Positions 2,712-9,132 of a stretch of DNA of 64,000 nt are shown in pieces; position 1 is the stretch's first letter; each line of letters begins with the position of its first letter. The DNA comes from Microcoleus sp. CAWBG506 (GTDB taxonomy: Bacteria > Cyanobacteriota > Cyanobacteriia > Cyanobacteriales > Microcoleaceae): assembly GCA_020883125.1 (NCBI GenBank), contig JAHREW010000005.1, positions 98,518 through 162,517 of the forward strand. The letters are read 5' to 3'. Position numbers and translations under genes: made by a program. The notes beneath the pieces are model-generated. The model was given only the letters and a program-made list of their open reading frames with translations. It did not search any database and was not told where the DNA came from.

Positions 2712-2784
2712 TTTCTGTAGCGTGGGCGTTGTGAGTCCTACTTGAGTGGAATTAAGTGCGATCGCTACGCCTCTAATCGCTAAT

Positions 2785-4077
2785 TCATTGGACGTTTGTG
2801 GAAAACGCATACATATACCCATCGTTGCGGTGGATTGATTCGCAGTATTTATGACGCACTGGACTTACCTTGCCTAGTGGCGTTCTCATCTCGAAAACTC
2901 CACTTTCTCTGACAGTCAACCTGCCGACGTGAGTACCTGCAAACTTCCCGGAAGGGAGAACTGCCCTCACCATATCGCCAGTCTGAAACCCAAAAAACGT
3001 CTTGCACCGCGTTCTGTGCCTCACCGGAAATCCATATTTATTAGTCGTAGACATCTGACGATTGCCCCATCCTTTAGCTGAAATTAGCAACGGCTTCTTA
3101 GCGTGAACTTGCAGCATTTCTACATTTCCTACGCAGGCGGCATCCAGCCAATGAGTTTTAGGTAGTTGCAGTCGAGTACGATTGAACTTTGTTCTACCTC
3201 CTGTTGAAACTTCTATTGGTGATCCTGTTTGTTTAAGTCGTTGAAATAATGCCCAACGGGTAGAATTTACCGCAGTTGCATCTTTCAAAGGTTGTTTTGC
3301 CTGCTTCAAAATACGGGACAATATCTCAGGCTTTTTGGATAAGAACTCCCGGATATCTTGATTGCCTTTCTTTTGGTTGCATCCATGACAGGCTATGGCG
3401 AGATTGGAAACTCTATCGCTTCCACCTTTTGATTTTGGGTGAATGTGTTCTACCTCAAAAGGTACGTTTTCCACCCCGCAGTAAGCGCACTTCCTCCCCC
3501 ATTTCTCTAATAAGTATTCCCTGACTTCATAGCCCGCAAGTTCACCTTGCTGATACTCCTTGCCAGAAATTTCGGGATTCTGCATTGCCTGCGTGTCAAA
3601 TTTAACCAATTCCTGCGATATGCCTGTAATTGGCACATATCGACGGACGCGGTTAACCCAAGTCATGATATTCTTCACCCTGGATTCTCTACTCGGTGGC
3701 AACCATCCAGGCGTTCTCTTGCGGTTCAGAAAGCGTGGTTTGCGGTAACGAGTTTTGCGGTTACGACGATTGCGACGAATGGCACGACGCGATTCTAAGT
3801 CGTTTTTAATTTGCTGCCCGCGATGGGTTAATTCCGCACCCCAGATCACTTGATCGCCCTGCACAATTGCTAGCCCAGTAGTCTTGGAACCTGGATCAAT
3901 TTTTAATTGAGCAGGTTGCACTTGCGGGTCTGAAACTGCATATTTCAGGATGATCGTGAACGGGTAACGGCGATATACAGCCGCTTGTTGTAGGTTCAAT
4001 AATCGTCTTGCCTGTCCTGGCGGTACTGGATCAAGCGGTTGTTTGTTGGTATCTAGAACGAACACAAAGTTAGACAT
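2785..4077 (-). CDS. iscB: IscB RNA-guided HNH/RuvC nuclease
   Basis: A 430-aa protein of the IscB family, the relatives and likely ancestors of Cas9. Domain order: N-terminal PLMP-like segment (residues 14-27, PLDPVPPGQARRLL), RuvC-I with D61 in KIDPGSKTTGLAIV, arginine-rich bridge helix (97-116), RuvC-II with E156, HNH at 197-240 (CAYC, then EVEHIHP with H211, then CHGC), RuvC-III with H309 and D312 in HWLDAACVG, and a C-terminal target-interaction domain. All expected RuvC and HNH residues are present and the length is usual, so the nuclease looks intact. A GAGG-type ribosome site lies about 8 nt before ATG 4077. The omega-RNA is immediately upstream on the same strand, the usual arrangement. 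Family knowledge: IscB uses omega-RNA to cut double-stranded DNA and favours retention of the element. Confidence 0.95.
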   Translation of the reverse strand: MSNFVFVLDTNKQPLDPVPPGQARRLLNLQQAAVYRRYPFTIILKYAVSDPQVQPAQLKIDPGSKTTGLAIVQGDQVIWGAELTHRGQQIKNDLESRRAIRRNRRNRKTRYRKPRFLNRKRTPGWLPPSRESRVKNIMTWVNRVRRYVPITGISQELVKFDTQAMQNPEISGKEYQQGELAGYEVREYLLEKWGRKCAYCGVENVPFEVEHIHPKSKGGSDRVSNLAIACHGCNQKKGNQDIREFLSKKPEILSRILKQAKQPLKDATAVNSTRWALFQRLKQTGSPIEVSTGGRTKFNRTRLQLPKTHWLDAACVGNVEMLQVHAKKPLLISAKGWGNRQMSTTNKYGFPVRHRTRCKTFFGFQTGDMVRAVLPSGKFAGTHVGRLTVRESGVFEMRTPLGKVSPVRHKYCESIHRNDGYMYAFSTNVQ

Positions 4078-4081
4078 AAAA

Positions 4082-4315
4082 GTCCTCTGATTACTCAGGT
4101 TATGTTTTCCTCGTCAATGTTAGCGGGGCTTGTCGTGCCGGAGACACTTCCTTAGCTAAATAAAGATGTTTAATCTCCGGCGACAGAGCTACAGGCTCGA
4201 AAGCACCCGTAGGTGTCGTGACCCTGCTAACGTAGCCTAGTTAAAGGCTTAGACTGGCTACCTTATCCACTGTTGTCCAGTGATTAGCGGATAGCCTTTG
4301 AGTTTGACTTGGGGG
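4082..4315 (-). ncRNA. IscB omega-RNA (HEARO-type RNA)
   Basis: About 230 nt directly upstream of iscB on the same strand with strong complementarity (plus-strand coordinates): 4119-4128 pairs with 4222-4231 (GTTAGC with GCTAAC), 4137-4144 pairs with 4174-4181 (GCCGGAGA with TCTCCGGC, perfect), a tight hairpin lies at 4204-4215 (CACC/GGTG), another at 4234-4249 (AGCCT/AGGCT), and the outermost stem is at 4256-4296 (GGCTA/TAGCC) with an internal CACTG/CAGTG hairpin. This fits the HEARO layout: guide at the 5' end, structured scaffold, then the ORF. The guide should be roughly the 16 nt on the 4300-4320 side of the outer stem. Exact ends are not measurable here. Confidence 0.8.
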
Positions 4316-4346
4316 CGATCGCCTTCTGTAAAACCTACAGATCAGG

Positions 4347-4488
4347 CTATAGTAATCCTAAATCATTTGCGTAATTTATTGTAGGGGCTCTTGGCCCCGT
4401 GGTTGCCCCGATAGATATGGAGTAGGCACGGGGAGTAGGGGTAGCACTACCCCTACAAATTTATATGAATCATTTAGGATTGCTATAG
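4347..4488. repeat. MITE-like repeat copy B (intact, empty-site copy)
   Basis: 142 bp bounded by imperfect inverted repeats: CTATAGTAATCCTAAATCATT on the left and the complement of CTATAGCAATCCTAAATGATT on the right (two mismatches). The inside holds a palindromic GTAGGGG/CCCCTAC pair. It shares its right half with the repeat at 27-247 and contains the uninterrupted TA (4462-4463) where that copy carries a second MITE. It lies between the IscB element and the split hydrolase gene. Confidence 0.65.
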
Positions 4489-4574: not shown

Positions 4575-4748
4575 ATGAGAAAACTAAGTTTATGGGGGCA
4601 ACAACTGAGCCTAATTTTGGGGGGAATTATGGCGGGTGTTTTCCTGGGAGAATTAGCTCTTCATCTGGGGGGAATTAAAGGTCTGAAAAAGCCCAGCGAT
4701 CCTGTCTCTTTTGATACTTACAGATTAGAGGATCCCGCTGGAGCTTGA
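4575..4748 (+). pseudogene. N-terminal membrane-anchor fragment of the SGNH hydrolase
   Basis: 57 codons from ATG 4575 ending in TGA at 4746-4748. It encodes a short basic start and one hydrophobic segment (about residues 10-34, LSLILGGIMAGVFLGELALH), a signal anchor. The frame continues without shift into the hydrolase ORF starting two codons later, so the two parts are one gene interrupted by a single nonsense codon. Either the gene is decaying, or the stop is a sequencing error, or the downstream part is made by reinitiation at TTG 4752. Confidence 0.7.
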
Positions 4749-4751
4749 TCG

Positions 4752-5783
4752 TTGAATCCGGGCGCGTCTTTCGAGTGGCTGGGTGAAGGGGAGCGCTCCT
4801 TTATCCAAGCGAATAAAGATGGTTTACGCGATCGTGAACATACGAAGGAGAAACCACCAAAAACTTTTCGGATCGCGGTGGTGGGAGATTCCTATGCCGA
4901 AGCTTTACAAGTGCCGATGGAAAAGACTTTTTGGTGGAAAATGAGAAAGCAACTCAATAAAAAATGTACTGCTTTAGGCGATCGCAAAGTTGAGGTAATT
5001 AATTTTGGGGTTCAGGGTTATGGAACGGCTCAAGAACTAATGACTCTGCGCCAGAAAGTCTGGAAATATTCTCCCGATTTAGTGATTTTAGCTTTTTTTC
5101 CAGGCAACGATATTATTAATAATTCCAAAAAGCTTGATTTGTATAAACGTCGGCCCTTTTTCGTCTATAAAAATGGTGAATTAGTCCCAGATATGTCGTG
5201 GCTGAAAATGTCACCGAAAGAACATGACTATTTAAAATTTTCCTCGGTTGATTATCTTCCCACTTGGTTGGTCAATAATTCACGCATTTTGCGGTTAGTC
5301 AGAAAAGTTGATTTAGATAATAAAAAACGTCTGCTTGATGCCACCGAAAGAGAACTATCCCCTAAGAACTTTCAAGAACCTATTGAGCCAGTATGGAAAG
5401 AGGCTTGGCAGGTGACAGAAGGATTAATTACACTAATCAATCAGGAAGTTAAGGTAAAAAAGGCAGATTTTATGGTTTTGATTGTCAGTACGGGAATTCA
5501 AGTCCATCCCGATCCTATAGCTCGTCAAGACCATATGAAACAATCTGGCATTAAGGACTTGTATTATCCTAATCAGAGAATCAAATCCCTTGGCGATCGC
5601 CTCAATATTACGACGTTGGATACAGTACCGCGATTGCGAGAGTATGCAGAAAAAAATCAAACTTGTGTACAGGGCTTGGACAATGCTCTGCCCTGTGAAG
5701 GTCATTGGAATAGTCAAGGCCATGAGCAAGTTGGTCAACTTATTGCAGAACACTTATGCGATAAGTTCAAAGCAGAGCCTTAA
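4752..5783 (+). CDS. SGNH/GDSL-type hydrolase (separated from its membrane anchor by a TGA)
   Basis: A 343-aa ORF in the same frame as the fragment at 4575-4748. Block I is IAVVGDSYAEALQVP (GDS serine), block III is near DLVILAFFPGNDI (the N of GND), and the C-terminal block V is GHWNSQGH with the catalytic His region. These mark an SGNH-fold hydrolase of the kind fused to N-terminal anchors in cyanobacteria, often linked to surface polysaccharide or acyl ester chemistry; the substrate is unknown. The TTG start right after the stop codon is only a formal start. Without the anchor the domain would stay in the cytoplasm, so the gene may be non-functional. Confidence 0.65.
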   Translation: MNPGASFEWLGEGERSFIQANKDGLRDREHTKEKPPKTFRIAVVGDSYAEALQVPMEKTFWWKMRKQLNKKCTALGDRKVEVINFGVQGYGTAQELMTLRQKVWKYSPDLVILAFFPGNDIINNSKKLDLYKRRPFFVYKNGELVPDMSWLKMSPKEHDYLKFSSVDYLPTWLVNNSRILRLVRKVDLDNKKRLLDATERELSPKNFQEPIEPVWKEAWQVTEGLITLINQEVKVKKADFMVLIVSTGIQVHPDPIARQDHMKQSGIKDLYYPNQRIKSLGDRLNITTLDTVPRLREYAEKNQTCVQGLDNALPCEGHWNSQGHEQVGQLIAEHLCDKFKAEP

Positions 5784-7005: not shown

Positions 7006-9132
7006 TTAAGCGTTTAGCGGAAAATTTTTGTCAAAACTGATTAACGGATGCCAAAACACGGATATTCCCAGTTTCTTAACAGATTTCAATTGCTTGGCTA
7101 ATTCTAATGTTCTTGTTTCGTACAGCGTCCAAGGGCCGACAATCCAATTGCGATCGTTGTTAGCTTTAATCATTTCGATCGCATTTTCTAGGGAACTGGT
7201 GACTTGACCATCGGGAATCACAAGTATCGCTATTTTTCCCTCTTTTTCAACTTCGGCGATTGCTGCTGGGGCGTTAAAATTATTTTTAGATAAATCGTAA
7301 TAATTATTGATTCTAAAAGTGGTTCCTCCTAGGGCTTCAAATTGTTTTTTAAATTCTTCCCACAAAGAAGCGCTGAAGGGACTATTGGGATTGTAAAATA
7401 CTGCCACTTTTTTCTGATCGACTGAGATTAGTTGATTTACTAAACCTTCAGCTTCTATGCTAGTTGTCGGTGCCGTCCGAAAGAAAAATTTCCGGGGTTT
7501 GCGTGTCAGTTCTTCTGTTGTGCTTCCCGGAGAAATAGCGACAAGTTGATTGCGATCGTAAATATCTACTGTTTCCACAGTCATGTCGCTGGTGTAGTGT
7601 CCGATTACTGCTAAAATATCTGGCTGAGCGACTAGAGAATTTGCTCTTTTAACTGCGTAGGATTTGATATTGCCGTCATCGGCGATGATGACTCTGAGTC
7701 CTTTGCCTTTAAGAGGTTTTTTTTCGAGCAATTCTTGACCGGGAAAGTCTTTATTGCTATTATTGGGAGTGATGAGACTTAAATTAACTTCAGTTTGAGC
7801 CTGAGCAATGCCACGCAGCAGTTCTTCGGCTAAGTTAGCATTGATAATGCTGCCGTCCTGATTGCTGCGGACGGGAACGACAATTGCGATGGTGTAATAT
7901 TCTGCGTTGATTGATTTGAGCAGGGCATTGTTGATGTAAATTAAAGTTTCTGGATCTCTGCGGTCTTCTCGCCAGGACTGTTTGAGCAATTTTAAAGCTT
8001 CTAAATAATTCAAGCTAGCAAACTCATTAATTCCCCTTTGTTTTGACCAAATGGCGGAGGTTTGCACTAGAATTTTTTCGCCCGAACTTACACCATCTGC
8101 GGAGGTTGCAGGCAGGGTTTGTTGCTGCCCGAATCTGGGGATTAAAAGTACGATCGCCAATGCAACAGCCAGTCCCGCAAGTCCCAATAGCACCCAGCGA
8201 AAGTGCGATCGGACAAATTGGAACAGCAACCAGAGAAAGCGCCATGGAGGTGGTGGTGGTGGTGCTGGTGCTGGTAATTGGAGCGAATCTAAGGCTTCTA
8301 ACACCTCAGCAGCAGATTGGTAACGCTTAGGAAAGTGGAACCGGATCATTTGATTTAAGATATTTTTTAGACCCTCGCTAACTTGTAACATTCCTCGCTC
8401 TGATGTTGCATAATTCCAAATAAGTTCGCAAGTCTTAGGCTCTTTTGGCAGATTTGTGGGATACTCCCCAGTGAGAGCTTGAATAACGATGATTCCTAGG
8501 GCATAAATATCATTGTATGGTTGCGGAAAAGACCGCGTATCGTATTGTTCGGCCGGCATATAACCGTCGGTACCTATCGCCTTCGATGTCAATATTTTAC
8601 CTGTACTGTTAGATGTGAAATTCCTGATTTCTTTAACAGCTCCAAAATCAATCATCACAAGTTTACGATCTTGGGTGCGCCGAATTAAGTTAGAAGGTTT
8701 AATATCGCGGTGAATAATATTTGCTTTGTGAATAGAATTTAAAATTTCTAGAATTTCCCGTAAAAAGGCGATCGCCTGTGCTTCCTTCCACTGCTGGCCA
8801 GGAAATATTTCTTTACTGAGGAGAGTTCCCTGAATGTATTCTTGAACTAAGTAAAAATTGTCATTTTCCTCAAAGCGCTCGAACAATTTGGGAATGCGCG
8901 AGTCTAGGTCCAGAGTCTGCAAAGCATTAGCTTCCCTTTGAAATCGTCTTCTAGCTTGTTCTAATACTAGGGGATTTTCCGATTCAGGAAAAGGAATTTC
9001 TTTAATCACGCACGGGGGATTTCCAGGGTTTTCTAGATCCTGAGCCGTGTAGGTTCTAGCAAATCCTCCCTGTCCTAATTGAGCAATAATTCTGTAGCGT
9101 CCAGCCAGTATATCTCCGGGATTGAGACACAT
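7006..9132 (-). CDS. Transmembrane Ser/Thr protein kinase with extracellular ligand-binding domain (C-terminally truncated by TAA)
   Basis: 708 aa. Residues 10-285 are a Hanks-type kinase: GQGGFARTY P-loop, K44, HRDIKPSNL with D143, DFG at 162-164. A proline stretch (288-296) leads to one membrane segment (about 312-332). The outer part (about 410-708) matches the branched-chain amino acid-type periplasmic receptor family (for example ILAVIGHYTSDMTVE, LVAISPGST and VAVFYNPNSPFS). The architecture is that of a one-pass receptor kinase: ligand outside, phosphorylation inside; the ligand is unknown. The last about 100 residues of the binding domain are cut off by an in-frame TAA, with the rest at 6700-7005. 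The kinase domain is untouched, but ligand binding is probably lost if the stop is real. Confidence 0.85.
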   Translation of the reverse strand: MCLNPGDILAGRYRIIAQLGQGGFARTYTAQDLENPGNPPCVIKEIPFPESENPLVLEQARRRFQREANALQTLDLDSRIPKLFERFEENDNFYLVQEYIQGTLLSKEIFPGQQWKEAQAIAFLREILEILNSIHKANIIHRDIKPSNLIRRTQDRKLVMIDFGAVKEIRNFTSNSTGKILTSKAIGTDGYMPAEQYDTRSFPQPYNDIYALGIIVIQALTGEYPTNLPKEPKTCELIWNYATSERGMLQVSEGLKNILNQMIRFHFPKRYQSAAEVLEALDSLQLPAPAPPPPPPWRFLWLLFQFVRSHFRWVLLGLAGLAVALAIVLLIPRFGQQQTLPATSADGVSSGEKILVQTSAIWSKQRGINEFASLNYLEALKLLKQSWREDRRDPETLIYINNALLKSINAEYYTIAIVVPVRSNQDGSIINANLAEELLRGIAQAQTEVNLSLITPNNSNKDFPGQELLEKKPLKGKGLRVIIADDGNIKSYAVKRANSLVAQPDILAVIGHYTSDMTVETVDIYDRNQLVAISPGSTTEELTRKPRKFFFRTAPTTSIEAEGLVNQLISVDQKKVAVFYNPNSPFSASLWEEFKKQFEALGGTTFRINNYYDLSKNNFNAPAAIAEVEKEGKIAILVIPDGQVTSSLENAIEMIKANNDRNWIVGPWTLYETRTLELAKQLKSVKKLGISVFWHPLISFDKNFPLNA

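Follow-up and report, generated by a model that had tools for sequence, protein, structure and literature searches.

Organization of the IscB Locus

The 64,000-nucleotide stretch of Microcoleus sp. CAWBG506 analyzed here (contig JAHREW010000005.1, positions 98,518 to 162,517; G000:C45:98518-162517 in our numbering, hereafter the window) carries near its start a mobile element that consists of an omega-RNA and an iscB gene and is inserted directly beside the cyanobacterial repeat HIP1 (highly iterated palindrome 1). IscB is an RNA-guided DNA-cutting enzyme and a relative of the ancestor of Cas9. We compared the element with the remainder of its own genome (G000, 6.03 Mb in 81 contigs), with a genus set of 29 genomes, and with fetched loci, which bear L-numbers; the genomes are mostly drafts, and the limits of the IscB subfamily and the counts of sites follow our own sorting of the sequences.

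The IscB encoded in the window scores 481.4 bits against the curated NCBIfam model guided_IscB (NF040563, cut-off 175), and Pfam assigns it an RRXRR domain (248.6 bits) and an HNH domain; the RRXRR/PLMP N-terminus, the split RuvC domain and the HNH domain that characterize the family are all present. Among named genomes, its two best matches come from a member of the Microcoleaceae and one of the Oscillatoriales. We aligned 85 full-length copies, namely the window copy and copies that we chose from a list spanning 59 genomes. The catalytic residues D61, E156 and H211 are identical in all of them, H309 in 83 and D312 in 84, and the RuvC (D61, E156, H309/D312) and HNH (H211) residues of the window IscB also align with those of the solved IscBs. 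An earlier reading made from the letters alone (the sequence-only reading) had described a full-length IscB with these residues and had named a lost catalytic residue as a ground for refutation; no such loss was seen in the window IscB. The dN/dS ratio (nonsynonymous to synonymous substitutions) of iscB relative to its two nearest divergent relatives is 0.102-0.112 (NG86) or 0.143-0.151 (YN00), which shows purifying selection, values of 0.10-0.15 being consistent with a working enzyme.

The covariance search, likewise proposed in the sequence-only reading, yielded a match to the complete Rfam HEARO model (RF02033, model positions 1-211) directly 5' of iscB and on the same strand, with a score above the gathering score of 83 (Table 1). 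Both stems named in that reading, GCCGGAGA/TCTCCGGC and GTTAGC/GCTAAC, recur in the consensus fold common to 10 near-element RNAs (alignment columns 138-146/174-182 and 87-92/195-200, respectively), where double changes that keep the pair are found in 22 of 56 pairs. The same family is abundant in these genomes: there are 10 HEARO matches at E<=0.001 in G000, seven of them above the cut-off, and 411 at E<=0.001 in the 29 genus genomes (summed counts), and five further IscB genes of G000 are full-length or close to it.

Insertion beside HIP1 and Mobility of the Element

The element ends were determined from empty sites, which were sought by searching the joined flanks of eight copies against the 29 genus genomes. 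At the window site, all three empty alleles that were fetched for alignment (G006, G011 and G025) run from the left flank through an uninterrupted GCGATCGC into the right flank; since the left flank continues directly into this octamer in each of them, the octamer predates the insertion and is present once, at the right end. The junction of the aligned empty alleles likewise reads GCGATCG in five of six alleles for the site of the G026 copy (L055), one in the own genome, in 17 of 19 for the site of the G017 copy (L059), and in the single empty allele for the site of the second own-genome copy (L054). The element was thus inserted beside a pre-existing HIP1, a fixed short motif, with GCGATCG present once at the right end and no target duplication. 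This insertion is the most unusual feature of the locus and is absent from the sequence-only reading. The occurrence of elements in which GTAC precedes CGATCG favors an insertion point between G and CGATCG and makes a 2-bp target duplication (GC), which we also considered, less likely. The end positions carry a one-base ambiguity, 4295-2766 fitting the window copy equally well. The empty-locus comparison, suggested in the earlier reading, fixed both ends and guide; of the bounds then proposed (2785 to 4320), the guide end near 4300 stands, and the lower one is slightly short, as the element reaches 2765/2766.

The guide starts at 4296 and runs upwards, because the empty sites place the left end at 4294/4295. 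It is host flank that matches the empty site in the DNA comparison, as in OMEGA (obligate mobile element-guided activity) systems, and the host-encoded guide that had been predicted beside the 4300-4320 end is thereby located. The full target, composed of the predicted 16-nt guide and the adjoining GCGATCG, is present without change in G026, G006 (twice), G025 and G011; in G021, G005, G019 (twice) and G020 it differs at one position, which lies inside the guide. An intact or one-mismatch target thus exists in eight of the 28 other genus genomes. At up to three mismatches, the occupied locus is the sole match in the own genome, and GCTATCC, the element start, there replaces GCGATCG.

The stretch 4294-2765 is identical at 1530 of 1530 positions to a stretch of Microcoleaceae cyanobacterium UBA9251 located at a different site; a comparison of the first 9.5 kb of the window with the 6.3-kb UBA9251 locus returned matches in the element and the adjoining GCGATCG only. 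Copies of about 99% identity, one with a deletion in G026 and a fragment in G011, have flanks that differ from those of the window, and 10 other subfamily loci showed no flank match adjoining the element, only short distant ones. Elements with the same ends that lack IscB include a 389-bp element with only the omega-RNA in G001 (L143), L143-like right ends that are interrupted by the contig edge at two G008 contig starts (L137 and L138), and a 102-bp derivative found at the same site in two genomes (L134, G000:C6, from about 2101; L142, G026:C242). The latter is an internally deleted HIP1-type element, with 88 bp of the left end fused to the right end, and constitutes a natural minimal substrate. 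The identical UBA9251 copy, the copies of about 99% identity elsewhere and the IscB-less derivatives indicate that the element is mobile and has moved recently, both from site to site and from species to species; the suggestion of the sequence-only reading that nuclease, RNA and host flank persist without transposition is not borne out.

Table 1. Features of the IscB element and its flanks (positions in the window)
Feature	Position	Strand	Evidence
Whole element, 1530 bp, CTATCC...GGCGTAG	2765..4294	-	Empty sites in G006, G011 and G025; identical UBA9251 copy
iscB, 430 aa, RuvC and HNH residues intact	2785..4077	-	Open reading frame (ORF), Pfam, NCBIfam, residue alignment
Putative target-adjacent motif (TAM)-interacting C-terminal region, aa 359-430	2788..3003	-	Lineage-discriminating residues concentrated (H383, R408, others)
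Omega-RNA (HEARO, RF02033)	4099..4295	-	Rfam, 131.9 bits; covariation
Predicted 16-nt guide in host flank, CAAGTCAAACTCAAAG on the minus strand	4296..4311	-	Abuts the left end on its outer side
Right terminus downstream of the iscB stop codon, ..GCGATTAGAGGCGTA	2766..2784	-	Common to copies inserted at different sites
HIP1 octamer GCGATCGC at the right end, pre-insertion; putative TAM, core CGATCG	2758..2765	.	Empty alleles

HIP1 Flank across the IscB Lineage

The right ends of three elements, each cut at GTA before CGATCG, were used as a query in the genus; this search replaced an earlier pattern search that contained CGATCG and was biased for the HIP1 question. [GC]CGATCG follows the right end directly in 21 of 25 genus matches, a figure that includes the three source copies and was obtained with an accidental G after two of the joined pieces of the query; among right ends that we sorted into the subfamily, the proportion is 17 of 18. 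In a survey of named genomes we scored 27 subfamily rows and 28 rows for other IscBs among 62 loci, the other seven being fragments. The motif [G/C]CGATCG stands at the right end in 25 of the 27 subfamily rows and within 75 nt in none of the 28 others (Fisher test, 1e-13), although this control window is sometimes short of the ends of other elements and L305 is also cut by a contig end; within 200 nt, the motif occurs in two of the 28. Among the 27 rows, six correspond to sites already counted in the genus and another two to a single site; the figure for new distinct sites is 19 of 20 by our own count. The subfamily hosts include Nostoc, Scytonema, Tolypothrix, Westiellopsis, Brasilonema, Microseira and Argonema. 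The terminal sequence beside the motif diverges among these elements (GAGGCGTA, GAGGAATA, GAGACGAT and others), and the motif is constant; two more loci at the order level (L342 and L341) agree. The HIP1 insertion flank is therefore a property of the lineage.

HEARO elements are reportedly flanked on the right by ATGA/GTGA, whereas the right flank in the window is HIP1. We inspected 13 other IscB groups by eye: six diverge directly after ATGA/GTGA (19 of 20 copies, the exception being L184), and the remaining seven have other or unclear ends. The right end of the HIP1 lineage also lacks the TTTCCTCCCC..GGGGCTTC hairpin that is present in several of the [AG]TGA groups.

Two further observations concern CGATCG at the ends of other elements. 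In the own genome, two contigs (L135, end of G000:C40; L136, end of G000:C70) break inside right ends that resemble those of L200, a distant IscB element with HIP1 ends; their outer flanks differ and both stand at CCGATCG, so this is a second, multi-copy HIP1-type element of the genome. The divergent IscBs L241 (G008:C1) and L242 (G017:C104), with 48% identity, share the end ..CTAGCGATCGGAC, after which they diverge; the CGATCG within it looks internal, and both were left out of the HIP1 counts.

Lineage-Specific Residues in the C-Terminal Region of IscB

Residues that distinguish the lineage were sought by comparing 23 lineage proteins with 76 others; one of the 15 added proteins, L291, was dropped owing to in-frame stops, and the motif-less L286 and L288 were kept in the lineage. 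Strongly discriminating positions make up 24 of the 67 scored in aa 359-430, compared with 0-9 in each of six other segments, and H383 and R408 are found in all 23 lineage proteins. By its location, this region corresponds to the TAM-interacting domain of OgeuIscB, to which the residue-level alignment did not extend. In the AlphaFold model of the window IscB, computed from an alignment of 12 copies, the C-terminus (361-420) is beta-rich with block means of 64-84 in pLDDT (predicted local distance difference test); the mean for the whole model is 58.9, which makes it too weak for a fold search.

Transposase Genes

In agreement with the sequence-only reading, which had reported no tnpA, no Y1 transposase match lies inside the element, and the Y1 TnpA that marks an IS200/IS605 (ISC) transposon is thus missing from it. 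Twelve Y1_Tnp matches, some partial, occur elsewhere in G000. The terminal sequence of the element is absent within 1.5 kb of all 12 loci, and TA[GC]CGATCG by itself is found at three of them. A tblastn search (1e-6) with the ORFs of 11 of the 12 loci against the fetched element loci gave no match, though distant transposases may have been missed. Elsewhere in the window, a fragment at 20532-20612 matches, at 89% identity, a portion of a Y1-transposase ORF located on the same contig (one fragment, found in a smaller-set search).

Proposed Mechanism and Alternative Explanations

The guide lies on the left flank, HIP1 is constant on the right, and an IscB target needs a 3' TAM; together these suggest that the nuclease likely reads HIP1, which is probably the TAM of the lineage. 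We consider it likely that the element is a non-autonomous member of the ISC/IS200-IS605 type that uses a transposase in trans, that the TAM of its IscB has switched to CGATCG, and that the cutting of empty sites retains the element. A Y1-type TnpA encoded elsewhere in the cell would move the element and insert it directly 5' of the HIP1 core, at G^CGATCG in the IscB orientation. Transcripts starting in the host flank would then provide the omega-RNA with a guide of about 16 nt, and the C-terminal domain of IscB would recognize either CGATCG or GCGATCG as the TAM. After departure of the element, or when an empty site is present in a sister chromosome or related strain, IscB would cut the guide sequence followed by HIP1, and repair templated by an occupied copy would maintain the element or let it spread. 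The occupied site would be spared, because the guide DNA there precedes GCTATCC and not GCGATCG. The retention step is drawn from OMEGA biology, and we infer both TAM use and cutting by the window IscB.

Several results weigh against this scheme. No transposase with matching ends was found among the Y1 loci of the own genome and the fetched element loci. The motif stands at the right end in just four of seven distant elements of the L200 type, L288 and G007:C130 lack it, and the only empty-site relative of the L057 copy (87% identical) reads GCGATCA. Relative to the 99% copy, dN/dS is 0.32-0.37, a value derived from very few changes (dS about 0.015). The segment aa 359-430 is more variable among IscBs in general, which by itself raises the number of discriminating positions. 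The distant IscB of L200 groups by its N-terminal part with [AG]TGA-type relatives, a single clade with the lineage being rejected (approximately unbiased, AU, test on 28 of the 85 proteins, p 0.0006); its C-terminal part groups with the lineage, but at a support of 85/59 and with the alternative unrejected (p 0.134), so that an exchange of modules is only suggested. Finally, HIP1 beside the element end could reflect the transposase alone.

This last point leads to an alternative that we regard as unlikely, namely that the transposase alone picks HIP1, while the TAM read by IscB is only short, or of another kind, and lies within it by chance. In IS200/IS605 elements, it is TnpA that sets the insertion motif; HIP1 is abundant, with 1.34 occurrences of GCGATCG per kb over 160 kb of host sequence, and the published IscB TAMs (see below) are looser. 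On the other hand, the nuclease differs most in its C-terminal region, as co-evolution with a new flank predicts, and a retention nuclease would have to accept the sequence left by the transposase. It is very improbable that the locus holds a fixed, domesticated IscB maintained without transposition: the absence of tnpA from the element and the purifying selection on iscB would agree with this, but it is contradicted by the UBA9251 copy, the copies of about 99% identity elsewhere and the empty sites in related genomes, which rule out domestication without mobility, and also by the unmatched flanks of the 10 other subfamily loci, short distant matches aside. Hardly credible, too, is a CGATCG that is internal to the element end and matches HIP1 by coincidence in a HIP1-rich genome, for although GCGATCG is about 30 times over-represented relative to base composition (expectation calculated by hand) and CGATCG occurs within 150 nt after the stop codon in 13 of 77 other IscB copies, these occurrences are scattered at 48-141 nt and never take the form GTA[GC]CGATCG, [GC]CGATCG is expected at only about 0.1% of positions, and the empty alleles, which hold the uninterrupted motif at four independent sites, rule this explanation out.

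Within the preferred reading of HIP1 as the TAM, a further version can be conceived, which we hold to be rather unlikely: the lineage would use as its TAM a palindrome that the host itself methylates, the HIP1 core being a target of DmtC/M.Ssp6803I-type enzymes, and cutting would depend on how far the site is methylated. Empty sites that have just been replicated or have newly entered the cell would then be cut differently from fully methylated resident DNA, and the supply of landing and cutting sites would follow HIP1 density, at roughly one site per kilobase.

Relation to Known Systems

The element shares with HEARO/IscB (ISC) systems (RF02033, NF040563) the omega-RNA 5' of iscB, the catalytic residues, the guide derived from the left flank and a motif in the right flank, and differs from the six [AG]TGA groups in its CGATCG/HIP1 flank and hairpin-less right end. 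According to PMC9755519, tnpA is rare alongside IscB in that family as well. OgeuIscB (PDB 7XHT) has the same RuvC/HNH architecture, and its TAM, as stated in PMC9640706, is read by a C-terminal TI domain and is of the short purine type, NNRR, as opposed to the palindromic motif of 6-7 nt predicted here; the published TAM of OrufIscB is NTAAA.

Elhai (2015, PMC4390886) describes HIP1 as frequent in many cyanobacteria and of little understood significance, and its CGATCG core as methylated by DmtC/M.Ssp6803I-type enzymes. The same paper presents the small dispersed repeat SDR5, likewise a cyanobacterial module inserted precisely in HIP1. Landing at HIP1 thus has a single precedent, from an unlike type of module. 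SDR5 is placed between HIP1 nucleotides 3 and 4, whereas the IscB element sits before nucleotide 1 or between nucleotides 1 and 2 and, unlike SDR5, carries iscB and an omega-RNA. A link between HIP1 and IscB was not found among the papers listed in the literature searched, in which coverage of subscription journals was mostly lacking. IscB, omega-RNA and guide are of a known kind, and what is new within that literature is a widespread lineage with HIP1 as its insertion flank and probably its TAM. Through a lineage that inserts next to HIP1 and probably recognizes it, this repeat would be connected to RNA-guided mobile elements. If the reading of HIP1 is true, the lineage would offer a natural example of a TAM change in an OMEGA nuclease, as well as a compact nuclease whose long palindromic TAM includes a site of methylation, and control of an RNA-guided nuclease by host methylation becomes testable.

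Other Features of the Window and the Host Genome

Two similar omega-RNA copies in G000, at C3:153631-153853 (L066) and C20:77913-78135 (L065), score 124.2 and 117.7 bits; no full-length IscB was found beside either, and it is possible that these RNAs act in trans. At C20:84802-85501 (L065), a relative of the RuvC part, aligned at 32% identity to query residues 4-163 and closely preceded by a weak HEARO match, is possibly an IsrB. G011:C1 holds about 790 bp of extra sequence (L152, 947-1737) near the empty allele that corresponds to the second own-genome copy.

In the neighborhood of the element, about 50 bp from its left end, positions 4347-4488 form a palindromic repeat of 142 bp that resembles a miniature inverted-repeat transposable element and has inverted arms of 21 nt; its end has many matches in G006, G025 and G026, and some in the own genome. 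A GDSL-like gene at 4576-5783 scores below the Pfam cut-off and is possibly disrupted, its possible start at 4576 and its main frame at 4752 apparently lying in different frames, as judged by eye. Further along, the gene at 7006-9132 encodes a fusion of a protein kinase domain with a domain of the periplasmic-binding type.
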